From NCBI GenBank assembly GCA_017383325.1, contig JAFNYG010000056.1, forward strand, positions 1 through 11,626: a DNA stretch of 11,626 nucleotides, given 5' to 3'. Position 1 is the first letter of the stretch. Every line of letters starts with the position of its first letter. This document shows, piece after piece, positions 1 to 11,626 of the stretch. Below the pieces are notes generated by a model that was not told the origin of the DNA, made no database searches, and saw nothing but the letters and a program-made list of their open reading frames with translations. This DNA comes from Alphaproteobacteria bacterium. GTDB taxonomy: Bacteria; Pseudomonadota; Alphaproteobacteria; Rs-D84. Both the position numbers and the translations under genes were made by a program.

Positions 1-1287
1 GATTCAGATATGACTGTAAACATGCCGTTTGTAAAGTTTGATGATGCGTCTGATGTAAAAATCACCGTCAGCGCCCATTCATCTGGCAATAACTATGCGA
101 CATTTACGACCAATTCAAATTTTTGGACCGCGGAAAATGTTGGTGGTCGGCTGTATTTGTTGGGGCGTCAGTGGTTAATAACAGAATACATCAGCCCAAC
201 ACAAATCGTTGTTCATACAAATGGCACATATACATTACCTGGGGCGTCTGTATCAGATTGGTACGAATGCGCATTCGGAAAACGTCGTGGTTGGCCACGC
301 AGTATTACATTTCATCAAGACCGCTTGGTATTTGGTGGTTCACGTTCATGGCCTGGGGGGATATGGATGTCGCGTGTCGGCCAGCATAATAATTTTAACA
401 CAGGCACTGGCCTGGATGACGAAGCGATATTTATTTCCCTGTTGTCTGCCCAGCGTCAACAAATTTGCACCGTCGTCAGCAGTGATAATCTGCAAATTTT
501 AACCAACGTCGGTGAATGGGCGATTTCCAGTAAACCATTGACCCCATCCGCTGTTGATATAAAACAGCATACATCTGTTGGTTCGTACGTGGCGCACTAT
601 CTGCCACCCCAAAAAATAGAAGGCGCAACAATCTTTATATCTGGCAATGGGCTTGATATTCGTCAGTTATCTTTGGATGAATTGGGGGAAAATTACAATG
701 CGAACGATTTGTGTGCATTATCAAAGCATTTAATGAATACGCCGATTGATATTGCCTATAACGCGTCAACGCGCCAATTATTTGTTGTTCGTCATGACGG
801 TAAAATGGCGGTTTTGAATCAGAATGCGTCACTTGGGGTGTCTGCGTGGGGAACATATAAAACCTGTGGCGAATTTTTATCTGTTTCTGTATGTGATGGC
901 GTCACATATGTTGTAACGCGTCGCGCAGGTGTTGTTTACCTGGAATATTTTGATTCAGAAACGATGTTGGATGCGGACGTTCACGGATTTTCATATATTG
1001 CATCCGGGTTGCCGTTGCGCGTGTCTGGGCATAATGCAACGCGTTTACGCCTGCGCAAAATATCTGCGCGGGTAATTGATACTAAATCAGTGTCAATAAA
1101 TGGTCATCGTATAACATTGCCGAACACGATATATGCAGAAAACGCCCCTGGATACAGTGGTGATGTTTCGATAAACCTGTTGGGAAATATTCAAAATTTT
1201 GATGCGCCCACATGGACGGTGCACAGTGATGAAAATTTTCCCGCCACAATACTATCAATCAGCATGCATGGTTGGTACACAGTTTAA
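1..1287 (+). CDS. Phage tail structural protein, podovirus type (5' end outside window)
   Basis: The frame is open from base 1, so the N-terminus lies outside the window; 428 codons are visible. The segment at 289-429 reads GWPRSITFHQDRLVFGG, then SRVGQHNNFNTGTGLDDEA. This is the pattern found in large beta-rich tail proteins of T7/BPP-1-like prophages (gyPravtfHqqRLvfGG...DyenF..gtglddDa), often annotated as tail tubular protein B-like or hypothetical phage protein. Later stretches (GDGKMAVL-like repeats, VTRRAGVVYLEYFDSE) also suit a beta-propeller or jelly-roll build. It would sit at the tail tube or tail-head joint. There is no signal peptide or membrane segment in the visible part. It is followed after 24 bases by the next phage gene. 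The structural role is fairly sure; the exact T7 counterpart (gp12) is an inference. Confidence 0.65.
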   Translation, partial: DSDMTVNMPFVKFDDASDVKITVSAHSSGNNYATFTTNSNFWTAENVGGRLYLLGRQWLITEYISPTQIVVHTNGTYTLPGASVSDWYECAFGKRRGWPRSITFHQDRLVFGGSRSWPGGIWMSRVGQHNNFNTGTGLDDEAIFISLLSAQRQQICTVVSSDNLQILTNVGEWAISSKPLTPSAVDIKQHTSVGSYVAHYLPPQKIEGATIFISGNGLDIRQLSLDELGENYNANDLCALSKHLMNTPIDIAYNASTRQLFVVRHDGKMAVLNQNASLGVSAWGTYKTCGEFLSVSVCDGVTYVVTRRAGVVYLEYFDSETMLDADVHGFSYIASGLPLRVSGHNATRLRLRKISARVIDTKSVSINGHRITLPNTIYAENAPGYSGDVSINLLGNIQNFDAPTWTVHSDENFPATILSISMHGWYTV

Positions 1288-1311: not shown

Positions 1312-1659
1312 ATGGGACAAGTTGTGTCAGATATCACAGAAATTCTGGAATATAAAGACGCCAAGAAGGCTGCAAAATCTCAGCGCAAAGAAATCTTGGC
1401 GCAGATGGCCGCAGATGACGCAGAAAAAACAAACCTGGTAAAAAAAGCTCTGGCTGCCCAGCGTGCTAAATATGGGGCATCTGGAATGCGCACATCTGGC
1501 GTCACCGAAGGCGCGGTATTAAAACGCTTGAAATCGGAAACTGCCGCACCATACGAAGAAAAACGGCTTAATAATTTAAGCAAATTAAAAAATATCAAAT
1601 CTAAAAAAACAAACCTATTAAAATCATTGCTTTCCAGATTTGATGATTTAGTGGGGTAA
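1312..1659 (+). CDS. Small charged phage protein, possible internal virion component
   Basis: 115 residues with a good ribosome site (AAAGGA, seven bases before ATG). The sequence is rich in Lys, Ala and Glu and predicted mostly helical. The N-terminal half is a long amphipathic helix; around residues 51-72 there is a small-residue segment (KYGASGMRTSGVTEGAVLKR), and the C-terminal 35 residues are Lys/Leu rich. Small proteins with a similar YGASG...SG/SE..AVLKRL stretch occur between tail and fibre genes in podoviruses and are usually called internal virion or hypothetical proteins. I infer that role from position and composition only. It is not fused to anything and shows no membrane segment. 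Confidence 0.55.
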   Translation: MGQVVSDITEILEYKDAKKAAKSQRKEILAQMAADDAEKTNLVKKALAAQRAKYGASGMRTSGVTEGAVLKRLKSETAAPYEEKRLNNLSKLKNIKSKKTNLLKSLLSRFDDLVG

Positions 1660-1678: not shown

Positions 1679-2113
1679 ATGTATAAAATATCTTATGTCA
1701 TGGATGGACAGGCAACAGAATTTGCGTTTGCATTTCCATTTTTTCAGATTGCAGATGTTCGGGTTGCGATAAATGGGATTGTTGGTGGGGAACAATATAA
1801 TTATACAGTTGTACCAAACGAAGATTTTTCAGGTGGAAATATTGTCTTTGACGAAGCACCACCCGCAGACACTAAAATGGATATATTTCGCCAGATATCA
1901 TTGTCACGCACGATTGATTATCAGCCAACATGTGCGATTGATTCCGAATATTTAAACACAGATTTTAATTTCCTGTTGTCTGCGTTACAAGATTTTCATA
2001 TCATGATTGATGGCATATACAACTGTGTTAAATCGAAACTAGGCGCCGGGGCTGTGCCAGAATTGTACTGTGGCATATCTGATGTATCAAATGACAGCAG
2101 TAACGCTTACTGA
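1679..2113 (+). CDS. Short T7-type tail fibre attachment-domain protein
   Basis: 144 residues. The ATG at 1679 is chosen because GGGGGGA ends four bases upstream; a TTG at 1661 is in frame but lacks a ribosome site. The protein follows the layout of the N-terminal domain of the T7 gp17 tail fibre: YKISYVMDGQ at the start, F.FPFFQIADVRVAING, then YTVVPNEDFSGGNIVFDEAPP and MDIFRQISLSRTIDYQP, ending with a helical NTDFNFLLSALQDF stretch. In T7 this domain anchors the fibre to the tail. Here the gene stops just after it, without the long shaft and receptor-binding part (T7 gp17 is about 550 residues). The 3' end overlaps the terL start by 23 bases, typical of phage gene packing and arguing against a recent truncation. 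It may act as an adaptor for a separate receptor-binding protein. Confidence 0.7.
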   Translation: MYKISYVMDGQATEFAFAFPFFQIADVRVAINGIVGGEQYNYTVVPNEDFSGGNIVFDEAPPADTKMDIFRQISLSRTIDYQPTCAIDSEYLNTDFNFLLSALQDFHIMIDGIYNCVKSKLGAGAVPELYCGISDVSNDSSNAY

Positions 2114-2708
2114 TTTTTACAGCTTTCTGGATGAATGGAATCGAACGCTTGGGTTAAAAACGCCTGCGCATCATCGTCGAATTATGGAATTTTTATATGG
2201 CGTAATATGTGATGCCCCCCATCGTGGGTTGCTGATGGCGTTTCGTCATTCTGGTAAATCGACAGTTGTTGGTATTTTTGTTGCGTGTGTATTGTACCTG
2301 CGTCCCCAGACACGTATTCTTGTCCTGTCTGCAGAATCCGGTCTGGCATCGCGTATGGTTTCGCATATTCGTCATATTTTGGAAAATCATCCATGGTGCG
2401 AACACCTTGTCCCAGGGAACAAGAAAGAATGGTCATCAAATCGTATAACGATCAATCGTCCGATTGGGATTCGCGAACCATCTGTTGTTTGCCAGGGGTT
2501 GCATGGCAACATCACAGGTCTGCGCGCAGATTTGATTATTTGTGACGATATCGAAGTTCCAAATACATCCAACACAGCCCAGAAACGTGACAATATGCGC
2601 GAACGCCTGCGGGAACTTGATTTTATATTATCGCCCACCGGTGCCATGATTTATATTGGCACGCCACACACATACGATACGATATATCGTACCTCTCCCG
2701 CGGACTAG
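2091..2708 (+). pseudogene. terL: Phage terminase large subunit, ATPase half (gene split by insert)
   Basis: 205 residues from the ATG at 2091; GTG 2070 and ATG 2082 are alternatives and none has a strong ribosome site. TerL is the motor and nuclease that packs phage DNA through the portal. This half is the ATPase: Walker A at residues 51-58 (FRHSGKST), Walker B at 147-153 (DLIICDD) and the coupling segment YIGTPHTYDTIY at 188-199. No stop or frameshift disturbs it. It ends at TAG 2706-2708, a few residues after the point where relatives continue toward a FL.G(F/Y)..L.lPi segment. That continuation is found 3.3 kb away at 6040-6888. I list it as a broken gene; it could be a working separate ATPase subunit, which sequence alone cannot show. 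The stop overlaps the stop of the facing gene at 2705. Confidence 0.88.
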
Positions 2709-3346
2709 TTCATGCTGCTGATAAATGTTCGTAATTTTGCCAATAATTCTGCGCCTGCATCACCAAACATTGGTAAATATGTTTCATATTCTGGCATATC
2801 CGCCTGCACCTGGGCCCGTACCCGATCTGATATTGGGTTGGCGATGATATTATTTGCCGTATCCCACAGTCTATATGCGTTGTATGTCTGGTTTACGACA
2901 TTCCATTTATCCAGTAAATCTGGGCGCGCATTTAGTGCTGCACGAACGGCGTTTTGCCATTCTTCGCCAAACGCGCGAACGATATCCAGTGACATAAACC
3001 TGTCCAGTCCCATTTGATCTGGGGTGAAACTATTCAATGCATCTTCTAATTCGTGCAATTGATTTTGATTCAGTTTGACTGTTGCTATATCTTCTGCGAC
3101 CATCATTCCACCATATGGCATCAGTTCTGGGTCAATCGTATTCATCTGGGTCTTGCCATCACGCAGATTTTTGATATGTTGAACCAGCGATTTTCCATTT
3201 GGCAACCCCTGTAATTCTTTTAATACATCATCGGTCGCCTCGTTAACAAACACTGAATTAACCGTCGCCCAGCCCCCGATAATTACGTGTTCTTGGCGGT
3301 ACAGGTTTAATAATCTCAGTGCGATTGTGCCGGTTTTTACGTTCAT
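2705..3346 (-). CDS. Unrecognised 213-residue helical protein
   Basis: I do not recognise this family. The start is supported by GGAGAGAG placed four bases before ATG, and it begins 23 bases after the regulator, so the two are probably co-transcribed. The protein appears largely alpha-helical and soluble, with no signal peptide, membrane segment, cysteine cluster or nucleotide-binding loop. It has an N-terminal stretch with GTIALRLLNLYRQEHVIIGG, an acidic middle (residues about 80-130) and a C-terminal half rich in Trp, Asn, Asp and Arg ending LLAKLRTFISSMN. Its stop (TAG, 2705-2707 on the complement) overlaps the terL ATPase-half stop in the same CTAG, so its last residues could have been set by the insertion. 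The context suggests a partner or target of the upstream regulator, but this is a guess. Confidence 0.65.
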   Translation of the reverse strand: MNVKTGTIALRLLNLYRQEHVIIGGWATVNSVFVNEATDDVLKELQGLPNGKSLVQHIKNLRDGKTQMNTIDPELMPYGGMMVAEDIATVKLNQNQLHELEDALNSFTPDQMGLDRFMSLDIVRAFGEEWQNAVRAALNARPDLLDKWNVVNQTYNAYRLWDTANNIIANPISDRVRAQVQADMPEYETYLPMFGDAGAELLAKLRTFISSMN

Positions 3347-3369
3347 AATCTCTCTCCGTTGATGACAGG

Positions 3370-4383
3370 TTATTCCATAACAATCATAACAACCTTATGC
3401 ATTGTTGTGGCTGTAATTTTTTCATCTGGCGCAGAAATTTGGCCATAAACCTTGCCTTTGGAATCCTGACGGACACTGACGATATGTGCATTCACAGTTG
3501 TTTCATCATCCAGTGCATCAAAATCAGTATCGATTGCGATGGCTAAATCCCCAGGCTGTGCGGGCGTTTCAGAATCTGCGAACACATACGATTTTTCTGG
3601 TATAAATCCGCCCAAGCGTTTTGAGTTTGGCACAATTGCATATATGCCTGCGCGTCCTTCCAGTGTCATTGGTGCAACAATCATGGTTTTATCTGATTTT
3701 TTGAATGCGATTGTTTTTCCCGATGGTGTTCCAAATACTGGGACCAGTTTTTTTCGTGCGCTGTCATACAGCTTTGCGCCATACAGACCGCCATGCATGT
3801 CCATTCCTGATAATGGATTCCCGGGTACCAGAACTGATTTTACACGTTCTTTTACCTTGCTGATTTGTTTGTTCAGTTCGCCAGATTTATACAAGGTTGC
3901 GATTTTATCGAACAATTCTTCGGCACCCAGTGCGAATGATTTCGCCAATGGTTCGATTTCATTTTGATATATTTCGCGTTGTCCAACCTCTATCTTGTGA
4001 TACACAGACAGTGTCATTCCTGCATCTTTTGCCGCCTGGGCGATTGTTTTACCTTTTTGTTGGCGTATTTTGCGCAGTCCGCTGCCGAATACTTTTAGTC
4101 CGCTGTTTTCATTATCGGACATACGGCGCTTAATTTCATGCTGCCATTGGTTTGCCACATCATCTGATTCTTTGATAAAAATATCAGACAGCTTGCATCC
4201 CAAGATGTTGCAAATATTCAGCAACTGCTTTTGGTTCAGTCGTCGTACCCCTTTTTCTATTTTAGAAACAGCGGACAATGACAATCCTGTCTGGCGGGCC
4301 AGTTCGGTCATTTTCATACCATTAGCTAAGCGAATATTGCGAATGTTATTTGGAAATATAATTTCTTCTTGGGCCATGGGCAA
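3370..4383 (-). CDS. Two-HTH XRE regulator with S24/LexA-like C-terminal domain
   Basis: 337 residues; ATG 4383 has TAGGAG seven bases upstream. It carries two separate XRE/Cro-type helix-turn-helix domains: residues about 12-68 (IRNIRLANGMKMTELARQTG, then LSLSAVSKIEKG) and about 100-157 (GLRKIRQQKGKTIAQAAKDAG, then MTLSVYHKIEVGQRE). A linker follows, then residues about 213-337 resemble the S24/LexA beta-clip domain (GIYAIVPNS...FIPEKSYVFAD...PAQPGDLAIAI). S24 repressors usually have a GDSM-type catalytic serine motif; here the aligned stretch is VPNSKRLGG, so self-cleavage may be lost or altered. By family it is a DNA-binding repressor. A palindrome overlaps its promoter, suggesting autoregulation. 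It sits between dnaB and the 213-residue gene and may control the insert or the phage genes. Confidence 0.8.
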   Translation of the reverse strand: MPMAQEEIIFPNNIRNIRLANGMKMTELARQTGLSLSAVSKIEKGVRRLNQKQLLNICNILGCKLSDIFIKESDDVANQWQHEIKRRMSDNENSGLKVFGSGLRKIRQQKGKTIAQAAKDAGMTLSVYHKIEVGQREIYQNEIEPLAKSFALGAEELFDKIATLYKSGELNKQISKVKERVKSVLVPGNPLSGMDMHGGLYGAKLYDSARKKLVPVFGTPSGKTIAFKKSDKTMIVAPMTLEGRAGIYAIVPNSKRLGGFIPEKSYVFADSETPAQPGDLAIAIDTDFDALDDETTVNAHIVSVRQDSKGKVYGQISAPDEKITATTMHKVVMIVME

Positions 4384-4392
4384 ACTCCTAAA

Positions 4393-4439
4393 TGACTAAT
4401 ACTTGACAAAATAATAGTCAATTTTAACACCTGGCGCAA
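4393..4439 (-). promoter_or_regulatory. Regulator promoter with overlapping palindromic operator candidate
   Basis: In the 71-base gap before the two-HTH regulator, a sigma70-like promoter reads on the - strand as TTGCGC (4439-4434), 17 bases, TATTAT (4416-4411). An exact inverted repeat TGACTA (4393-4398), 16 bases, TAGTCA (4415-4420) overlaps the -10 box, and its flanks are also partly symmetric (AATGACTAATA facing TAATAGTCAATT). A smaller pair, TTGAC and GTCAA, lies inside the same region. The arms are about two helical turns apart centre to centre, which would suit a dimer or the two HTH domains. The operator role is inferred. Confidence 0.5.
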
Positions 4440-4454
4440 GTAAATAATTAAAAA

Positions 4455-6020
4455 TTACAATGGCATGTCGTCTGGGAATGCATCCGGATCGATTGCAGTC
4501 GGTGCCGAATCCGCGTCATTTGCCAGTTGTGCCGCCGTAATTGTTGGGGCAGGTTGTGCAAATTCATTTTCGCCACGGGCTTCAAACTCGTCCAGATTGT
4601 CAAACAGACTGTAATCGCCAAAGAACGCCGTACGAACGGTTTCTGGACGTCCATGTCGGTTTTTTCCGATGATAATATCTGCCTTGCCACGTGAACGTTC
4701 ATATCGTTTTTGCCATGATTCAACCATCGCATTATTTGTTGTATTTGACATACGTTCAGATGGGTCGCGATTTTGCAGATAGTATTCTTCGCGGTATGTA
4801 AACATAACGATGTCGGCGTCCTGTTCAATTGATCCAGATTCACGCAAATCTGACAGCATTGGGCGTTTGTCATCGCGCGCTTCGACACTTCGTGACAGCT
4901 GGGACAGCGCAATAACAGGAACATCTAATTCCTTGGCCAGCATCTTCAGCCCACGTGTAATCTCAGAAATTTCCTGAACACGGTTGTCGCTGTGCTTGCC
5001 GCCTGGCGACGTCATCAGCTGCAGATAGTCAATTACAATCAGTGCGATTCCGCCATGTTTGCGCGACAGTCTGCGCGCGCGTGTTCGCATCATCGGCACA
5101 CTCATTCCTGGGGTGTCATCTATAAACAGTGGCACCTGACCGATTGCGGCCGAATATTGCGACATTTTCAAGAAATCTTCGTCCGTCAGCGTTCCTTCGC
5201 GCATGGATGTTGCCGGAATTTTTGATTGTGACGATAAAACTCGCGCCGCCAATTGTGACGCAGACATTTCCAAACTGAAAAACACGACTGCGCCTTTATA
5301 GTTTTTATTTGCACGCCCATATGCGATTGCCTGGGCTGCATTAAATGCTATGTTCATTGCCAGCGTTGTTTTCCCCATCGCAGGACGTCCTGCGATGATA
5401 ATCAGGTCGGAATGGTGCAAACCGCTGATTGATTTGTCCAGTGCATTCAGCCCCGTTGTCAAACCCGACAATTGACCGTCTGCCTTGTATGCGATTTCTG
5501 CTTCGGCCAGTGCGCTTTGCAACGCGGTTGAAATTGATGTCACTTCGCGTTCAGACGTCCCTGTTGTTGCCATATCGAACAGTTTTTGTTCTGCGATTTC
5601 GATTTGTCGCGATACAGGGTTGTCCAAATCTTCTACAAATGCCTGGTCTGTGATATCCTGGGCCAACGCAATCAGATCGCGTCTCAACGCATGTTCATAG
5701 ACGATACGTGCATACTGTTCTACATTTGCGACCGTTGCACCGGCGCCGGCCAGTTGGCTTAAATAATCAACACCACCAACAGATTCCAGAACACCTTGTT
5801 GGTCCAAATAATTTTTTGCTGTGATAATTTCGAATGGTATTCCCGCGGCAAATTGTTTTTCGGCCAATTTATATATTTCCTGATGTGCGGGATGTGAAAA
5901 ATGCTTGCTGCTCAGGAATTCATTAACACGTTCCAGTGCCCGATTATTCATCAATACCGCGGCCAGGACGGCCTGTTCTGCTTCCAGATTTGTTGGTAAT
6001 GTTTTGGGGGTAAAATCCAT
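4455..6020 (-). CDS. dnaB: Replicative DNA helicase DnaB, chromosomal type
   Basis: 521 residues. DnaB is the hexameric helicase that unwinds DNA at replication forks. ATG 6020 begins MDFTPKTLPTNLEAEQAVL, the usual DnaB N-terminus, and has AAAGGA about six bases upstream; an upstream in-frame extension has no DnaB similarity. The N-terminal domain covers about 1-150, the linker 150-185 and the RecA-like C-terminal domain 185-480. Walker A is at 211-219 (GRPAMGKTT), Walker B at 327-335 (LIVIDYLQL) and the conserved DLRESGSIEQDAD at 391-403. The length and the insert before KADIIIGKNRHG (residues about 412-446) resemble alphaproteobacterial chromosomal DnaB more than compact phage helicases. 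The acidic tail (480-521) is variable. There is no RNA or protein intron. The usual rpsF-rpsR-rplI neighbours are absent. It is the first gene of the terL insert, and its 5' flank reads into the TerL nuclease half on the other strand. Confidence 0.95.
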   Translation of the reverse strand: MDFTPKTLPTNLEAEQAVLAAVLMNNRALERVNEFLSSKHFSHPAHQEIYKLAEKQFAAGIPFEIITAKNYLDQQGVLESVGGVDYLSQLAGAGATVANVEQYARIVYEHALRRDLIALAQDITDQAFVEDLDNPVSRQIEIAEQKLFDMATTGTSEREVTSISTALQSALAEAEIAYKADGQLSGLTTGLNALDKSISGLHHSDLIIIAGRPAMGKTTLAMNIAFNAAQAIAYGRANKNYKGAVVFFSLEMSASQLAARVLSSQSKIPATSMREGTLTDEDFLKMSQYSAAIGQVPLFIDDTPGMSVPMMRTRARRLSRKHGGIALIVIDYLQLMTSPGGKHSDNRVQEISEITRGLKMLAKELDVPVIALSQLSRSVEARDDKRPMLSDLRESGSIEQDADIVMFTYREEYYLQNRDPSERMSNTTNNAMVESWQKRYERSRGKADIIIGKNRHGRPETVRTAFFGDYSLFDNLDEFEARGENEFAQPAPTITAAQLANDADSAPTAIDPDAFPDDMPL

Positions 6021-6039
6021 GTCAAATTCCTTTACTTCT

Positions 6040-6888
6040 ATGCCAATGGTATATGAAAAAAAAGCTTTTTCAACGCCTTTTTTGCTTGGATATAAATTGT
6101 TGAAAATACCGATAATTAATGCTGTTGGCGAACCCGCGTGGCCCGAACTTTTTCCAGTATCCAGGATTGAAGAGCTGCGCATAACAGTTGGTCCGCGTCA
6201 TTTTTCATCACAAATGATGCTGGAATGCACGCCATTGGAACGCGCGCGCCTGGACCCAGGTGGGTTAATTTTTTACGACGATGAATTCGATGTACGTATG
6301 GCCCAGATTGGTGATTTTCACATATCAGGCATGACGTTATATTGGGATCCATCGACCGGGCGACGTCGTCGCGATGGCAGTGCCTGTGTCTTGCTATATC
6401 GGGATGATAAAACGCGTCATATTTTTATTCATGACGTTTTGTATCTGACCGTATCCGACGATGACCAGTTTCCATTATCGCGCCAATGCGACATGGTGCT
6501 GGATTTTATGGCTGCGCGCAATTTATCCAGAATCAGTCTGGAAACCAACGGTATTGGCATGGGTGTGCCCGAAATCATGCGTGATTGTGCGGTGCGTCGT
6601 GGCGTAAATATTTACGTTAACAAAATTCAGAATCACAAATCGAAATCAGACCGCATTTTAAACGCGATTGAACCAGTCCTGTCAACTGGGCGCCTGCATG
6701 CGCATACACGTGTTCAGAACACGGCCTTGATGGCGGAAATGCTGGGGTGGACACCGATTGGTGCGCCGGGTATTCACGATGACGGCCTGGATGCGGTTGC
6801 GGGCGCCATTGCGGACATGCCAATCCCGGTTCGCGCCATCGGTGCCCGTGCCAGAACATTTTCTGCGAATACAAATTTCAAGATTTAA
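6040..6888 (+). pseudogene. terL: Phage terminase large subunit, nuclease half (gene split by insert)
   Basis: 282 residues if the ATG at 6040 is used; the open frame extends back to 5905, but that part lies over dnaB and is not TerL-like. The TerL match resumes around STPFLLGYKLLKIPI (residues 11-25), followed by AWPELFP, RIEELRITVGPRHFSSQM and LDPGGLIFYDDEF, all typical of the linker in this TerL type. The RNase H-like nuclease keeps its acidic residues: D103 in LYWDPSTG, E168 in SLETNGIG, and D247/D248/D251 in HDDGLDA. There is no frameshift or stop. It has no clear ribosome site or promoter of its own at 6040, so expression is uncertain unless the insert is removed or transcription starts within dnaB. 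Downstream, the portal gene begins after 18 bases with its own ribosome site, as in intact phages. Confidence 0.88.
6046..6073 (-). promoter_or_regulatory. Possible dnaB promoter inside terL 3' half
   Basis: On the - strand a TTGAAA box (6073-6068), 16 bases, and TACCAT (6051-6046) lie 25 bases before the dnaB start. The -35 box is good and the -10 is weak. The site falls within codons of the resumed TerL frame, and next to it is the short inverted repeat GAAAAA/TTTTTC. Prediction by eye only. Confidence 0.3.
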
Positions 6889-6906: not shown

Positions 6907-8136
6907 ATGTATCAAAACTTGCAAAATCTTTATAAACGTGCCCTGGACATGCGCGGTCCATGGCAAAATCGCTGGGACGCGGCACGTCGCTATGCCATGC
7001 CGTCGGCCGACGATGATGCGGCGACATTATTTGATGCGACCGCCATGGATGCGGCCGATAATTTGGCGGCATCGATTTATACATTGATGACACCGCCTGA
7101 ATCTATGTGGCTGCAATTGGTTGGCGAAAGCGACCTGGCCCAAAATGCAGAATATGCAACTGCTGTTTTGCGTGCCAACTTAAATGACTCGAATTTCTAT
7201 ACGACAATTCATCAGTGTTATATGGACTTGGTCGTATTGGGAACTGCATGCCTGTTCATGGCCCAGTCTCCAATCGGTGCATCATCTGCGTTTCAATTTA
7301 CCGCCATCCCCATGTCTGACATTGCCATATTGCCAGACGCAGTATTTCATACCACATCCATGTCTGCACGCGAAGTAATGGCACAGTATCCAACATGGAC
7401 ACCACCTGTTGGGCTGCGCGACACGATAAAGCGTGACCCGGAAACGCCATTAAAATTAGTCCAGTCTTTGGTTGGCACTGATTTTGTTGCGTGGTTGGAT
7501 GTTGGTGGTGATATTGAAAATAACGTTGTATCGACTGGCACATTTGAAACGAATCCATACATTATATTTCGTTGGTCTGTATCGTCTGGCGAATTATATG
7601 GCCGTGGCCCTGTGTTGCGTGCGTTGCCAGATATCAAGACTGCAAATAAAGTTGTTGAACTGGTGCTAAAAAACGCGACGATTGCGGTATCCGGCATATG
7701 GCAGGCCGACGATGATGGCGTTATCAATCTGCAAAACATAAATTTGACCCCTGGTGCGATTATCCCCAAAGCTGTTGGGTCATCTGGTCTTACCCCATTG
7801 GCCAGCGGTGCAAATTTTGATGTTTCGCAATTAATACTAAAAGATTTACGTGAACGTATCCGCCATGCGTTATTGGCGGATCGACTGGGGCTGTTATCTG
7901 AAAAAGAAATGACCGCCACTGAAATCATGGCGCGCAATGCAGACATGATGCGTATTCTTGGGGCGACATACGGGCGCCTGTTGCATGAATTTATTCGTCC
8001 ATTGTGTGATCGTGGATTACAGATATTGGCGCGTCGCGGCTTAATTGAACCAATTCGTCTAAACGGTGACGCAGAATTAAAATACATTGCGCCGATTGCA
8101 CAAATGACCGCAATGGAAAGTGTTTTAGGGGGGTAA
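6907..8136 (+). CDS. Phage head-tail connector (portal), T7 gp8 type
   Basis: 409 residues; strong ribosome site AAAAGGAAA before ATG 6907. The N-terminus RGPWQNRWDAARRYAMPS (16-33), LFDATAMDAADNLAASIYTLMTPP (41-64) and the block ELYGRGPVLRALPDIKTAN (from about 229) are hallmarks of the Bacteriophage head-to-tail connecting protein family. The dodecameric portal forms the DNA channel at one capsid vertex and is the docking site for the terminase. A later segment with EKEMTATEIMARNADMMRILGATYGRL is the conserved C-terminal helix region (TAtEv..R...m...lG...grl). At 409 residues it is clearly shorter than T7 gp8 (about 536), ending soon after the core, so the variable C-terminal part is missing or very short. 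There are no internal stops. It is followed immediately by the Bbp19-like gene. Confidence 0.88.
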   Translation: MYQNLQNLYKRALDMRGPWQNRWDAARRYAMPSADDDAATLFDATAMDAADNLAASIYTLMTPPESMWLQLVGESDLAQNAEYATAVLRANLNDSNFYTTIHQCYMDLVVLGTACLFMAQSPIGASSAFQFTAIPMSDIAILPDAVFHTTSMSAREVMAQYPTWTPPVGLRDTIKRDPETPLKLVQSLVGTDFVAWLDVGGDIENNVVSTGTFETNPYIIFRWSVSSGELYGRGPVLRALPDIKTANKVVELVLKNATIAVSGIWQADDDGVINLQNINLTPGAIIPKAVGSSGLTPLASGANFDVSQLILKDLRERIRHALLADRLGLLSEKEMTATEIMARNADMMRILGATYGRLLHEFIRPLCDRGLQILARRGLIEPIRLNGDAELKYIAPIAQMTAMESVLGG

Positions 8137-8349
8137 ATGCAGGCTATGACAGATATTTCTTTAAATTATGCACGTTGTTTTTCATCTGCTGCGGGACGTT
8201 CTGTTCTGGGGCATTTGCGTAACATTACGATTGAACGTACATTGGGGCCAAACACGTCTGACAATGATTTGCGCTGGGCAGAAGCCCAACGCGCATTAGT
8301 GCGTCACATAGAATCACAAATTGCGCGGGGCAGGGGGGACAAGTTATGA
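8137..8349 (+). CDS. Bbp19-like small phage protein
   Basis: 70 residues; ATG 8137 comes directly after the portal stop, with GGGGGG four bases upstream inside the portal's last codons, so the two are translationally linked. The pattern YARCFSSAAGRSVLGHL (11-27) followed by EAQRALVRHIESQI (49-62) matches the small Bbp19 family named after Bordetella phage BPP-1 (Y..vF.t..G..VL.dL ... eGqR.l...I...l), which sits beside the portal in related podoviruses. Its function is unknown. No membrane segment. Confidence 0.7.
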   Translation: MQAMTDISLNYARCFSSAAGRSVLGHLRNITIERTLGPNTSDNDLRWAEAQRALVRHIESQIARGRGDKL

Positions 8350-8582
8350 TAAGCCTTGAATTTCTGCGCAACAGTTGGTTTTTGATTGTATTTATTGGTG
8401 GGTTAATCTATTGGGTTGCCCGCCAAGATTTATCGGTCGCTGAACTTGAACGCGTAGATGTGCGCATAACATCGCTTGAAAATCGTACAACTATGTTGGA
8501 AACGGGTATTGGCCAAATCCAGATAAAAATTGATGATATCAAAGAAGATCTGACTTTGATTAAGGGCGCCGTTATAAAATAA
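8346..8582 (+). CDS. Small membrane-anchored coiled-coil protein, holin/spanin-like position
   Basis: 78 residues starting in an ATGA overlap with the previous stop. Residues about 10-25 (SWFLIVFIGGLIYWVA) form one membrane helix. From about 30 to the end the sequence has regular heptads (VAELERVDVRITSLENR...IGQIQIKIDDIKEDLTLIKGA) predicted to form a coiled coil. In phages, small proteins of this build next to the portal/Bbp19 pair are usually annotated as hypothetical or holin-like. A single membrane helix with a coiled coil would also suit an inner-membrane spanin or an envelope anchor. No lipobox is present. It is the last phage gene before host DNA. Confidence 0.6.
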   Translation: MISLEFLRNSWFLIVFIGGLIYWVARQDLSVAELERVDVRITSLENRTTMLETGIGQIQIKIDDIKEDLTLIKGAVIK

Positions 8583-8631: not shown

Positions 8632-8811
8632 CTAGTGTGAAACCTTCGCTTCGGTCATAACGACATGCTTGCGCAATTTTTTGTCGTATTTACGGAATTT
8701 CATTTTACCCTGGGTATTCTCAGACTTAGTGTTTTTAGTAGTGATATAGAACACACCAGTTTCGTTGTTTCTTAACTGTACAACTTCTTTGCTGCCTTTT
8801 TTAGATGCCAT
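8632..8811 (-). CDS. rpmG: Ribosomal protein bL33
   Basis: 59 residues, a small basic protein of the large ribosomal subunit near the tRNA exit site. MASKKGSKEVVQLRNNETGVFYITTKN and the end KMKFRKYDKKLRKHVVMTEAKVSH follow the L33 pattern (l.s...tg.fY.t.KN......k.l.kyDp..rkHv...E.K). There are no zinc-binding cysteines, so it is the C-minus type. ATG 8811 is chosen over an upstream in-frame start at 8853 because similarity begins here and AAGG stands nine bases before it. It has its own promoter (8842-8870) and terminator (8588-8605), so it is a single-gene unit facing the phage block. Four residues longer than the common 55-residue alphaproteobacterial form. Confidence 0.92.
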   Translation of the reverse strand: MASKKGSKEVVQLRNNETGVFYITTKNTKSENTQGKMKFRKYDKKLRKHVVMTEAKVSH

Positions 8812-8841
8812 TTTATTCGCCTTTTTATTATTCTGGGACGG

Positions 8842-8870
8842 ATTGTATGTCATATTTTACTGGAAATCAA
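8842..8870 (-). promoter_or_regulatory. rpmG promoter
   Basis: On the - strand TTGATT (8870-8865), 17 bases, TACAAT (8847-8842), placed 30 bases before the rpmG start. Both boxes are near the sigma70 consensus with ideal spacing. Confidence 0.65.
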
Positions 8871-8884
8871 GTAAATTTTATCAT
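8856..8884 (+). promoter_or_regulatory. Possible tRNA-Leu promoter
   Basis: On the + strand TTTACT (8856-8861), 17 bases, TATCAT (8879-8884) lies about 21 bases before the mature tRNA end, overlapping the divergent rpmG promoter. Boxes are moderate; prediction by eye. Confidence 0.4.
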
Positions 8885-8905
8885 AAAATAACAAAACAGA
8901 CCGAT

Positions 8906-8990
<85 letters not shown>

Positions 8991-9041
8991 CAAATTTTTG
9001 TCCCATTACCGGCAAAATATACCAAATTAACATCCAATAAA

Positions 9042-9062
9042 AATCCCCCGAATTGGGGGATT
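9042..9062 (-). terminator. Intrinsic terminator of the cold-shock gene
   Basis: AATCCCCC (9042-9049) and GGGGGATT (9055-9062) pair perfectly around a five-base loop. On the - strand the stem is followed by TTTATTG, and counting the stem the T-run is five. It stands five bases after the stop at 9068. Read on the + strand it may also end tRNA-Leu transcription. Confidence 0.8.
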
Positions 9063-9067
9063 GTTAT

Positions 9068-9409
9068 TTATTTTTTCCAGAATGCAAAACCACGGCGTGA
9101 AGATTTTTCTTCGCGTTGTTTGCGATCCTCGATTGCACGCCGGCGTTCCGCGCGACGTTCCTGGAAACGGCGTGCAGATTCTTCGTCACGTTGAATGACT
9201 GCGATTGTTGTTGCTGATAATTTACCATTGCGAACTTCTTCTTCGAATTCAACAATGTCATTTTCATTTAAAAATCTAATACCTGCGGCCTTCAGCGAGC
9301 TAGAATGCACAAATACATCATCTGTGTTGCCGTCTGCATTTGGTGTGTCTGGGCTAATAAAACCAAAGCATTTTTTTCCATTATACCATTTAACTTTTCC
9401 TTGACGCAT
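9068..9409 (-). CDS. Cold-shock-domain protein with charged C-terminal tail
   Basis: 113 residues; ATG 9409 is preceded by AGGAAAGGATT. Residues 1-72 form a cold-shock domain, a five-stranded barrel that binds single-stranded RNA or DNA. It contains GKVKWYNGKKCFGFIS with RNP1 at 13-19 and RNP2 at 32-36 (VFVHS), followed by FLNENDIVEFE. RNP1 is K-C-FGFI, where the common form is KGFGFI. Residues 74-113 are an unusual tail of Arg and Glu (RDEESARRFQERRAERRRA..., ending GFAFWKK), likely a single charged helix. Typical CspA is about 70 residues, so the tail adds more than half again. The family acts as an RNA chaperone or antiterminator. Single-gene unit with its own terminator and a 5' hairpin; a weak promoter (TTCATT, 17 bases, TTATAT at 9492-9464) can be drawn. 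Confidence 0.88.
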   Translation of the reverse strand: MRQGKVKWYNGKKCFGFISPDTPNADGNTDDVFVHSSSLKAAGIRFLNENDIVEFEEEVRNGKLSATTIAVIQRDEESARRFQERRAERRRAIEDRKQREEKSSRRGFAFWKK

Positions 9410-9436
9410 AATCCAATCCTTTCCTTATGCTGTTAT

Positions 9437-9461
9437 GGTTCTGCCAAGCACGTTCAGAACC
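9437..9461 (-). promoter_or_regulatory. Hairpin upstream of the cold-shock gene
   Basis: GGTTCTG (9437-9443) and CAGAACC (9455-9461) form a perfect 7-bp stem with an 11-base loop, 28 bases before the csp start. If transcription starts further upstream it is a 5' leader hairpin, as cold-shock mRNAs often have. If the weak promoter noted for csp is right, it would overlap the start site and could instead be an operator. Confidence 0.4.
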
Positions 9462-9509
9462 TGATATAATTTTGACAGTTTTTCCCAATGAAAGCAAGGG
9501 GAATAAAAA

Positions 9510-9530
9510 TGCCCGCACATAACGCGGGCA
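9510..9530 (-). terminator. Intrinsic terminator of the lysS unit
   Basis: TGCCCGC (9510-9516) and GCGGGCA (9524-9530) pair perfectly around a seven-base loop. On the - strand TTTTTA follows the stem. It lies four bases after the stop of the 466-residue gene, so it ends the lysS operon. Confidence 0.85.
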
Positions 9531-9534
9531 ACGA

Positions 9535-10935
9535 CTATTTTTTATAGTATCTTTGAACTTCGTTCATTACAAAATTAAATAGTTTTCCTGCCTGTGTTGT
9601 TGGCGGCATTGCCCAGTCGTGTTGCATATACGGCATTGCCGCAACCAGCACAAATCGCGCCATAAAATGAAAGATGCGTGATTCTTGATGCTTGGACAAT
9701 TTGACCGGCGCATTTTGAACGCGAAAAACCTCGTTTTCGATTGCATCATCCAGTTTTTCGTTTATATTATCCAAAATCTTTTGTGGATAATACAGTCTGC
9801 ATTCTTTTGGGAATCCTTCGAATATTGACACATCGTTATTTCGCGAATATAAAATATTCCATCCAACCCGATCGAACAAATCTTCCAAGCATTGGCAGAT
9901 CATACGATTATACTCTTTTACGCCCTTTTCATAATACTCTGCCAGGCGGGCTTCCATATTATCTGACTTTGCGCACTTCTTTTTTCGTGCCGCCTCGTAA
10001 ACATCGTGTGTTTTGCTTTCGAATTCAAAGAATGTGCGAACCTGGCATATAATTTCCATTGGGATAACTTGATCTGGGCTGGGGCCGATGTTCAGTATTA
10101 TCTTTGCATCGCGATAATTGCGTGGGTTTTTCATGTTATAGAATGTATCACGCACCGCCAGCACGCGTTCAGGCATCATTTCATACAGCCGTTCAATGAA
10201 CGTACGTGCCTGTGGTATTAAATCGAACAGACATTTTACGCGCCAAACATCCTGCAATCGCATGCGTGGTGGTGCGATTTTATCAACAGCTCGCACTAAA
10301 TCGACTGCGATTTTTTCGTGGCCGCGTCCAATAATTGACAGCACGGTTTCTGATGCAGCGCTGACATATTTTTCTGTAAAACGTGAACGAATTTTATCTG
10401 CAATTGCACGTGCAGATGCCTCGCGTTCATGTGCCGCCAGAACACCATAGGCCGCATTTGCCACATCGTTTACATAATCTGCATAGTATTTACCCGTAAT
10501 TTTATCCAATGCGCGGTTTATATTTTTTTGCGCACCAACAATTACAGTCACTATCGACGATACCGCCAAATCAACGCGTTGCCCCACAGAATTGGTAAAG
10601 AATTGATTGCGCATTGGGTCCGCATCCAAGCGATGATTTACCACATATGGCGACAGTGGGCTGATATCTGCGATACGGATTGGTTCATCGATTGCACAGT
10701 TCGTTTCATAGTCATACTTCATAACCGCTGTTTTGGGTGCACCAAAGCATTTGCCCAGAACATAGAACACTTCGCGAAACCAGTGCAAACTGTCTGAATA
10801 CAGCGTCTTCAGATATTCGCCGGCCTCCTCATTAATACGTCCATCGGCAATTGCGCGATTTATAATTTCTAAATTTTTTCGATCGTTATCTGCAACTATA
10901 TCCTGCACAGAACTATCGGAACCAATGTATGACAT
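9535..10935 (-). CDS. 466-residue protein with a RelA/SpoT-like fold in the middle (divergent)
   Basis: 466 residues starting 15 bases after lysS, with AAGGTG eight bases before ATG, and ending at an intrinsic terminator. Residues about 180-320 show the order of motifs of a RelA/SpoT (p)ppGpp synthetase domain in weak form: GRGHEKIAVDLVRAVDK (203-219, cf. gR.Ks..Si..Km), LQDVWRVKCLFD (227-238, cf. iyDl.giRv.v), AVRDTFYNMKNPRNYRDAKIIL (260-281, cf. DYI..PK.NGYrslH), MEIICQVRT (293-301, cf. vEiQirT) and THDVYEAARK (309-318, cf. aH..YK). The NGYrSLH histidine is replaced (YRDAK), so activity may be lost or changed. The N-terminal 180 and C-terminal 150 residues are unrecognised and mostly helical, with no membrane segment. 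A role in sensing charged tRNA or starvation, suggested by lysS, is inference; it may be another nucleotidyltransferase-fold protein. Confidence 0.6.
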   Translation of the reverse strand: MSYIGSDSSVQDIVADNDRKNLEIINRAIADGRINEEAGEYLKTLYSDSLHWFREVFYVLGKCFGAPKTAVMKYDYETNCAIDEPIRIADISPLSPYVVNHRLDADPMRNQFFTNSVGQRVDLAVSSIVTVIVGAQKNINRALDKITGKYYADYVNDVANAAYGVLAAHEREASARAIADKIRSRFTEKYVSAASETVLSIIGRGHEKIAVDLVRAVDKIAPPRMRLQDVWRVKCLFDLIPQARTFIERLYEMMPERVLAVRDTFYNMKNPRNYRDAKIILNIGPSPDQVIPMEIICQVRTFFEFESKTHDVYEAARKKKCAKSDNMEARLAEYYEKGVKEYNRMICQCLEDLFDRVGWNILYSRNNDVSIFEGFPKECRLYYPQKILDNINEKLDDAIENEVFRVQNAPVKLSKHQESRIFHFMARFVLVAAMPYMQHDWAMPPTTQAGKLFNFVMNEVQRYYKK

Positions 10936-10947
10936 GGTGTATACACC
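10936..10947 (-). promoter_or_regulatory. 12-bp perfect palindrome over the ribosome site
   Basis: GGTGTATACACC is a perfect palindrome filling most of the gap between lysS and the 466-residue gene and ending right before its ATG. It contains the GGTG of the ribosome site, so in RNA a GGUG/CACC stem could hide it, or in DNA it could bind a dimer. The stem is short (4 bp with loop UAUA). Confidence 0.35.
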
Positions 10948-10950
10948 TTT

Positions 10951-11626
10951 TTACTTCATTATTGGGAACAAGATTACATCACGCAGCGTTGGCTGGTCAA
11001 AAATAATGCTGGCCAAACGATCAACACCAACCCCCACACCAGAAATCGGCGGGAACCCATGTTCCATCGCACGTACGAAATCGTTATCTGGGTTAAATGC
11101 TTCTTCATCCCCACCGGCAATATTTTTTGCCTGTTCTTCGAATGCGGCCAATTGCTGAATTGGGTTTACAAGTTCTGAATACCCCTTGCAGATTTCGGCG
11201 CCACACACCAACAATTGATACATATCTATGCGACGTTCGTCTTTGTCATTGCGGCGGGCCAACGGCACCATATATGCCGGATAGTTGTACAAGAATGTTG
11301 GATTGACAATATCACCACGAATCTTGCGCTTGTATACATAGTCAACCAGTGTTGGGATTGACTTTAAATCTTCTAATTCTGACATTGGGAACATGCCGTT
11401 ATCAACCAATTTCTGACGCAGCGTGTCTACATCATCAAAATCCAAAATATCACAACCAAAGAACTCGTTCATTTTGGCAGTATAGTCAATCATCTCGTAT
11501 TTTGAAAAATCCAGTTTTGTACCCTGATATTCAATCTGTAATGTGCCACGACATTTCATCAACAAATCCTGGATTAAATCCCATGTAAATTTGATATTGT
11601 CATTAAAATCCCAATACGCCGCATAC
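10951..11626 (-). CDS. lysS: Lysyl-tRNA synthetase, class II (N-terminal part outside window)
   Basis: The C-terminal 224 residues are visible; the frame remains open to the right edge. The enzyme joins lysine to tRNA-Lys using ATP. The stretch YAAYWDFNDNIKFTWDLI followed by IEYQGTKLDFSKYEMIDYT matches the region after the catalytic motif 2 of LysS (mAYADY.Dlm.ltE.l). The end holds EEAFNPDNDFVRAMEHGFPPISGVGVGVDRL, class II motif 3, and closes with RDVILFPIMK, very close to other LysS. The visible part runs FVRAMEHGFPP where many LysS have Y..ALE.GmPP, a common variant. First gene of an apparent unit with the downstream 466-residue gene; no promoter lies inside the window. LysS is preferred over LysX/EpmA because of the acidic pocket residues and the closing LFP.MK. 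Confidence 0.93.
   Translation of the reverse strand, partial: YAAYWDFNDNIKFTWDLIQDLLMKCRGTLQIEYQGTKLDFSKYEMIDYTAKMNEFFGCDILDFDDVDTLRQKLVDNGMFPMSELEDLKSIPTLVDYVYKRKIRGDIVNPTFLYNYPAYMVPLARRNDKDERRIDMYQLLVCGAEICKGYSELVNPIQQLAAFEEQAKNIAGGDEEAFNPDNDFVRAMEHGFPPISGVGVGVDRLASIIFDQPTLRDVILFPIMK

Follow-up and report, generated by a model that had tools for sequence, protein, structure and literature searches.

How does a virion gene cluster come to carry a terminase gene in two parts, with a replicative helicase gene on the opposite strand between them, and do the parts still make a terminase? This question is raised by an 11,626-nucleotide contig (JAFNYG010000056.1, assembly GCA_017383325.1; hereafter the window, meaning the whole stretch analysed), which derives from the chromosome, as the host genes downstream indicate (rpmG, tRNA-Leu, csp, lysS), of an alphaproteobacterium of the order Rs-D84 that resembles Candidatus Enterousia. 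Here, a T7-type large terminase subunit (TerL) is encoded on one strand as two proteins, TerL-N (gene terN), which runs to position 2708, and TerL-C (gene terC), which begins at 6019. The plus-strand run of T7-type virion genes consists of a partial gene for tail tubular protein B (TTPB), g115, a fibre N-terminus and terN, then terC, portal, g70 and g78. Between terN and terC, 3.3 kb (2709-6018) hold hyp213, an XRE regulator gene (xre) and dnaB, all on the minus strand (Table 1). It is likely that the window samples a domesticated, T7-type, gene-transfer-agent-like virion cluster, present across nearly all sampled Rs-D84, in which TerL exists as two proteins, an ATPase core and a lid-nuclease.

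The terN open reading frame (ORF) ends at a TAG codon (2706-2708) and contains Walker A (FRHSGKST), Walker B (LIICDD) and the coupling motif (GTPH). TerL-N matches positions 1-192 of the 500-position T7-type TerL model NF033889 with 231.5 bits against a cut-off of 150, and TerL-C, which is free of stops, matches positions 333-500 with 91.7 bits, by itself under that cut-off. In PHROG 38, the N half covers positions 271-459 and the C half 472-711. Comparison by eye with the intact 507-aa TerL of a viral contig (L067) shows no conserved segment lost. These matches bear out a first-pass annotation of the window, which had described an ATPase half stopping at 2708, a stop-free nuclease half on the same strand and, together, a TerL of normal length. 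As two ORFs, the window TerL departs from the NF033889 equivalog, which is one polypeptide of ~500 aa. The nuclease half, said to resume near 6060, most likely starts at 6019, at an in-frame ATG within CATG that follows a Shine-Dalgarno-like GGGGG (6006-6010). The cut had also been placed exactly between motor and nuclease; since TerL-N aligns to residues 19-211 of the 586-aa PhiV-1 TerL (8dgc_E), it is placed instead after the coupling motif, and the ~95 residues ahead of the first nuclease motif go with TerL-C. We take these residues to be the lid/linker of the ATPase domain, as in TerL generally. The predicted structure (AlphaFold) of TerL-N has a predicted local distance difference test (pLDDT) score of 89.4, and its top fold match is 8dgc_E, with a template modelling (TM) score of 0.82 by query length. 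That of TerL-C has a pLDDT of 84.8 overall, with a confident nuclease; sequence searches found no credible relative of TerL-C in the PDB, and its relative was found by fold alone. Thus, terN resembles T7 gp19 and PhiV-1 TerL by sequence and fold and terC by fold only. T7 gp19 and PhiV-1 TerL are one polypeptide, whereas the Rs-D84 TerL is two, cut after the coupling motif.

The same split, for which the first-pass annotation proposed a search of related genomes, is widespread. The N half retrieved 148 loci, of which 119 have terN-hyp213-xre-dnaB-terC-portal in the same order and on the same strands, which is far beyond chance; these are 45 viral contigs and 74 genomes, and 117 are distinct by terN and terC sequence. 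A further 28 show the same order up to the contig end, with at most 353 nt remaining, and L067 has the sole intact TerL of the 148. Misassembly, also put forward at first, is discounted because the 119 loci come from many assemblies. Across 142 evenly sampled genomes of the order, 135 match the TerL model, 132 of them over the cut-off, and N-half matches over the cut-off end by model position 224 in every genome except G034, where one match spans both halves with nine internal stops and the two ORFs lie 174 bp apart. A six-frame model search of the 142 genomes found no intact TerL. The terC model matches 133, two of them weakly (G039 and G087, excluded from the tally); both halves are present in 128 genomes, terN only in 4, terC only in 3 and neither in 7. 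The sample represents the order to which the Candidatus Enterousia intestinigallinarum genome (L101) belongs, and the equation of this order with Rs-D84 follows from the name; Enterousia is described as a member of Rs-D84 (PMC12306168). Genome sizes in the sample are 0.5-1.1 Mb (rounded), and the best 80 of 153 genome loci with the N half include 4 Candidatus Enterousia and many from animal guts.

Outside the order, TerL is usually whole. Of 385 Alphaproteobacteria sampled evenly, 125 match the TerL model and 58 exceed the cut-off. Among these 58, 52 are intact, 1 runs into a contig end and 5 are split; all five belong to the order sample too. Intact means one open frame covering at least 425 of the 500 model positions, with G512, two stretches of one frame, counted. 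Within this class sample, the split TerL is specific to Rs-D84. The counts of split genes rest on six-frame genome searches. Protein database searches returned only proteins of 0.55-1.75 times the query length, and their uniform half-lengths were not used as proof because full-length TerLs could not appear there.

Both TerL halves are co-retained and, judging from their codons, under purifying selection. Walker A is kept in 164 of 164 aligned terN sequences, K56, D152, D153 and E155 are invariant, and GTPH is kept in 163; the alignment draws on 170 loci, with 6 partial or overrunning ones dropped, includes the intact L067 and four places fetched twice, and holds 150 distinct sequences. In terC, D103, E168, D248 and D251 (numbered from 6040) are invariant in 135 of 135 sequences (from 144 loci; nine dropped, including L153 and L156; L067 included) and again in the 47 rows of alignment A2, where L153 and L156 are present. 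Stricter patterns score lower where neighbours vary (ETNG/EVNG 110/135, DDGLDA 115/135, Walker B 161/164). The first-pass annotation had proposed dN/dS for each half; the medians are 0.065 for terN (23 pairs, maximum 0.473) and 0.081 for terC (25 pairs, maximum 0.143), beside 0.037 for dnaB (37 pairs), 0.038 for portal (27), 0.048 for xre (35) and 0.059 for hyp213 (18). Faster genes are the endolysin-like gene (0.399), scaffold (0.258), g115 (0.236) and tail tubular protein A (TTPA; 0.147). All medians are over pairs with dS of 0.1-0.9, a range that holds no terN or terC pair involving the window itself. Stops in the best terN matches occur at the natural end only (7 of 170 loci), and the best terC matches in 144 loci hold none, though frameshifts outside the best match would not show. 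A recent disabling insertion, one option of the first-pass annotation, is rejected on two grounds: genomes across the order share the split, and no decay is seen in either half. It is also very unlikely that the cluster is a decaying prophage remnant on its way out with a dead split terminase. Portal, TTPB or xre is broken in single loci, no small terminase was identified, and 14 of the 142 genomes are without one or both halves, all as decay would have it, but dN/dS is low, stops are confined as described, the catalytic positions are kept and the cluster is present in most of the order. A working two-part terminase, another option raised at first, is supported by the order-wide conservation, intact motifs, purifying selection and co-retention, with enzyme activity predicted from these features.

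The block between the halves is younger than the split. The first-pass annotation had called it a 3.3-kb opposite-strand insert carrying dnaB and a regulator with no mobility gene. The minus-strand block stands, as do its contents (PRK09165 and PF01381 matches, no recombinase family), but "insert" is misleading, since the split predates it. In L153, L154, L156 and L158, terN and terC are adjacent separate ORFs; in L155, L159, L160, L162, L163, L164 and L172, terC is found past the portal gene, kilobases away from terN; in L157, terN is followed by portal, and the genome search recovered no terC. These are sister lineages with dnaB on another contig, and because they are split as well, the dnaB-xre-hyp213 block is judged later than the split. 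terC and dnaB diverge within 100 nt in 105 of the 130 genomes with both located; the 25 exceptions comprise 13 genomes of sister lineages (dnaB on another contig), 2 more in which the genes are on different contigs and 10 with them on the same contig, farther apart or otherwise oriented. In L155 and L170, whose dnaB lies elsewhere, XRE relatives with 38% identity sit 3 kb from terC. The dnaB of the window is of the chromosomal type, and each of the 30 relatives' genomes checked has one full copy of the gene; the block should therefore not be dispensable.

An excisable element or an intron that rejoins TerL under some condition would have precedents in nif and sigK genes, named in the first-pass annotation, and in the herpesvirus UL15 terminase gene, whose exons are described as flanking opposite-strand genes and being spliced (PMC3079670). 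UL15 and the Rs-D84 TerL are both terminase genes in two parts around opposite-strand genes, but UL15 exons are spliced to yield one protein, whereas no intron was found here and two proteins are expected. Rejoining has next to no chance of being right: both halves carry start and stop codons of their own, several genomes place terC after portal, lineages without a nearby dnaB are split too, and excision would remove the only dnaB in 30 of 30 relatives. An intron- or intein-interrupted terL was rejected, as Rfam at gathering scores finds only tRNA in the window and family scans find no intein family on either half. A nif/sigK-type element was rejected likewise, with no recombinase family match on the three block proteins and no direct repeat joining both block borders among the 20 largest repeat families listed.

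Where present, the block is interlocked with the terminase genes. dnaB and terC share CATG in 122 of 126 scored loci (127 have both genes), in frame and open for terC in 121; the remaining four read CATTATG (three) or CATTTTG (one). At the other end, the convergent stops of terN and hyp213 overlap or abut (-10 to +9 nt) in 119 of 145 loci. Codons 4-15 of terC are under synonymous constraint, with a mean relative codon entropy of 0.23 (7 informative codons) versus 0.90 (102). On its opposite strand, this stretch carries TTGAAA-N16-TAC(T/C)AT or a near variant, upstream of dnaB, in 121 of 126 loci; the pattern was drawn up with the sequences already in view, and at six control offsets elsewhere in these loci it fits 2-10 of 121-124. 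In 97 of the 121 loci, the -10-like hexamer ends 7 nt ahead of the dnaB start, which suggests a nearly leaderless message; in the window this distance is 25 nt, with AAGGA ahead of the start. A consensus promoter scan finds 14 sites overall versus 10.2 expected (sd 3.4), and so conservation, not consensus match, is taken as the promoter evidence. By this evidence, terC contains a promoter-like motif for dnaB that is conserved. The constraint and the embedded motif could mean that terC is kept chiefly for the dnaB promoter. However, this is highly improbable, because the constraint stops at about codon 15 and so accounts for the first 15 codons only, protein-level constraint spans the nuclease, and terC is kept also where dnaB is on another contig.

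The cluster resembles a gene transfer agent (GTA) in having phage-type capsid, portal, tail and terminase genes together in one chromosomal cluster. In L101, it runs from an endolysin-like gene (a weak match, PHROG 938, E 1.4e-5) through scaffold (PF05396), an HC2-like repeat protein, major capsid protein (PF19821, E 3e-73), TTPA and TTPB to g78. The lysine/alanine-repeat HC2 histone-like protein (L101:5566-5973) is matched in 13 of 148 loci. Among the scanned ORFs of L101 and the window, none in the cluster is an integrase or phage replication gene; a 103-aa ORF after the capsid gene was left out, and hyp213 and g115 match no family. Between rpoB and a tree built from five cluster proteins, 14 of 25 splits agree, compared with a maximum of 1 in 200 shuffles, and single genes share 10-13; the tree covers 28 genomes, of 30 chosen, one being without rpoB and one without portal. 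By this comparison, the cluster seems mostly vertically inherited, and its content fits a domesticated, GTA-like module rather than an infecting phage. RcGTA and BaGTA are likewise phage-derived structural clusters inherited vertically in alphaproteobacterial chromosomes. Unlike them, the Rs-D84 cluster has T7-type (podovirus-like) proteins, a split terminase and an embedded essential host gene. Its terminase, portal, scaffold and capsid match NF033889, PF12236, PF05396 and PF19821, which we presume are not RcGTA families, and these assignments would set it apart from homologues of the RcGTA structural cluster. An unlikely alternative is that the cluster is retained for another job, such as a defence, lysis or DNA-processing device, in which TerL-N and TerL-C would be enzymes acting apart and nothing would be packaged; the split would free the nuclease from the motor, but the cluster keeps its scaffold, major capsid, portal and tail tube proteins together, as expected of DNA-filled particles. 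In a genome of the order (G001, ~845-847 kb; L185), a second ORF of 517 aa has weak TerL similarity and by its look is another phage terminase type. A DNA methyltransferase-like ORF lies beside it, and the two perhaps mark a different prophage-type region in the same genome.

If the cluster is a domesticated, GTA-like module, the simplest reading of the two chains is that they would reassemble at the portal. TerL-N and TerL-C would dock together there, the lid of TerL-C would complete the ATPase and position the nuclease, and the two chains together would package DNA, probably host DNA. The dnaB-xre-hyp213 block would have entered an already existing gap. The source of TerL-C could then be a long plus-strand message crossing the block in antisense, considered because almost no terminator space exists between terN and hyp213, or a promoter inside dnaB, for which the plus-strand site at 5275-5302, matching a loose pattern in 68 of 112 loci, is a candidate. 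A scan for synonymous constraint in dnaB, in which codons near the Shine-Dalgarno-like site (3, 4, 7, 8) and scattered single codons stand out, gave no sign of a terC promoter, with no 15-codon stretch below 0.72. By either route the RNA would run antisense to dnaB, whose expression it could counteract while the cluster is active. Noncontiguous operons, in which same-strand genes are described as flanking opposite-strand genes (PMC7154746), and excludons share this layout; in Rs-D84, transcription of this kind is suggested by the layout, and the interposed gene is a replicative helicase.

Several observations weigh against a domesticated cluster with a two-part TerL. Seven of the 142 genomes have one half and seven have neither, and in such drafts loss and incompleteness are indistinguishable; all data come from drafts and metagenome assemblies, the most complete record being L101, a 1.0-Mb metagenome-assembled genome titled "chromosome". 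The failure to identify a small terminase counts here too, as do the broken neighbours (portal in L061, TTPB in L049 and L158, xre in L074). The first 20 residues of TerL-C have pLDDT below 50 and residues 21-70 about 67-82, and TerL-C compares with 8dgc_E at a TM score of 0.50 and a root-mean-square deviation of 12.9, matching by parts, although PhiV-1 TerL is nonetheless its best solved fold. This low-confidence N-terminus would be compatible with a part that packs on TerL-N. The joined cluster tree has two strongly supported conflicts with rpoB, and portal alone up to four. The long-message step is weak, given the promoter-like site inside dnaB (5275-5302), whose loose fit across loci is not separated from protein-coding constraint.

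A second gene, ftsZ, is caught up in the cluster of sister lineages. The FtsZ/tubulin domain PF00091 was found in 17 of the 142 genomes, with no match in the other 125, the Enterousia-type majority, and TIGR00065 likewise matched none of 8 genomes; control genomes were positive in 13 of 14 for each model. In 11 of the 17 ftsZ-bearing genomes, from sister lineages, ftsZ lies inside the virion cluster, where it adjoins or separates terN, portal and terC (L155, L158, L159, L160, L161, L162, L163, L164, L166, L170, L171), and in a twelfth (G032) it is on the same contig, ~8 kb from terC. No ftsZ was detectable in any of the 105 genomes in which dnaB and terC form the divergent pair. A broader scenario, which is doubtful as a whole, would make this a podovirus-origin GTA-like system, inherited by descent, that packages host DNA with a two-subunit motor-nuclease. 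An essential gene entangled in the split (ftsZ in some lineages, dnaB where no FtsZ is detectable) would protect the system from deletion, and on induction RNA antisense to dnaB would stop replication.

In the TerL genes compared outside the order, ATPase and nuclease form one chain (52 of 58 genomes in the class sample). The need for this joint is a mechanistic question, and more than 100 natural two-part terminases across one bacterial order are available for testing it. The cluster points to a T7-type GTA-like system in gut bacteria with ~1 Mb genomes, and shows a way in which an embedded promoter and a common start codon can bind a domesticated phage cluster inseparably to an essential gene of its host. 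In the open-licence literature searched for split or two-gene terminases, T7-like or podovirus GTAs, and Enterousia or Rs-D84 prophages, no title or abstract among the listed papers deals with such an arrangement.

Table 1. Features of the window, with positions, strand and the evidence for each assignment.
Feature	Position	Strand	Evidence
Tail tubular protein B-like, 5' end beyond window	1..1287	+	PHROG 376 E 5e-57; L101 homologue matches 139/148 loci
g115, conserved cluster protein, no family match	1312..1659	+	L101 homologue matches 139/148 loci
Tail-fibre N-terminus-like protein	1679..2113	+	PHROG 1640 tail, E 4.6e-10
terN, ATPase core of T7-type TerL	2091..2708	+	NF033889 231.5 bits, model 1-192; Walker A/B and coupling motif
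hyp213, no family match	2705..3346	-	Stop codon overlaps terN stop; median dN/dS 0.059
XRE-type regulator, two helix-turn-helix domains	3370..4383	-	PF01381 E 5.7e-21
Operator-like inverted repeat TTGAC-N9-GTCAA between dnaB and xre	4403..4421	.	Read from sequence
dnaB, replicative helicase	4455..6020	-	PRK09165 equivalog 610.7 bits
Promoter-like CTGAAA-N16-TATAGT within dnaB	5275..5302	+	Consensus scan; possible terC message source
Shine-Dalgarno-like GGGGG for terC, within dnaB codons 4-5	6006..6010	+	
CATG, in which the dnaB (minus) and terC (plus) start codons overlap	6018..6021	.	
terC, TerL lid/linker and RNase H-fold nuclease	6019..6888	+	PHROG 38 positions 472-711; pLDDT 84.8
Promoter-like TTGAAA-N16-TACCAT for dnaB, embedded in terC	6046..6073	-	Consensus scan and conservation
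Portal, T7-type head-tail connector	6907..8136	+	PF12236 E 1e-81
g70, small conserved cluster protein	8137..8349	+	L101 homologue matches 106/148 loci
g78, small protein, last cluster gene in many loci	8346..8582	+	L101 homologue matches 85/148 loci; no PHROG match at E 1e-3
Host flank: rpmG, tRNA-Leu, csp, hyp466, lysS	8632..11626	.	

The surroundings of dnaB and terC vary in single loci. In G050, G055, G066, G107, G126 and G132, dnaB is on the same contig as terC and at most 12 kb away, not head-to-head within 100 nt, and in G066 it is on the same strand as both TerL halves. A defence-like pair of RloB-like and AAA_21 genes lies between dnaB and terC in L168 (2791-4717). Extra ORFs occur between terC and portal in L012 (8580-10657), L110 (14775-15666) and L125 (14794-16125); they include cysteine-rich, secreted-looking proteins on the other strand, and this site is possibly an insertion hot spot. 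In the window, the inverted repeat beside xre may be an operator for the XRE protein.

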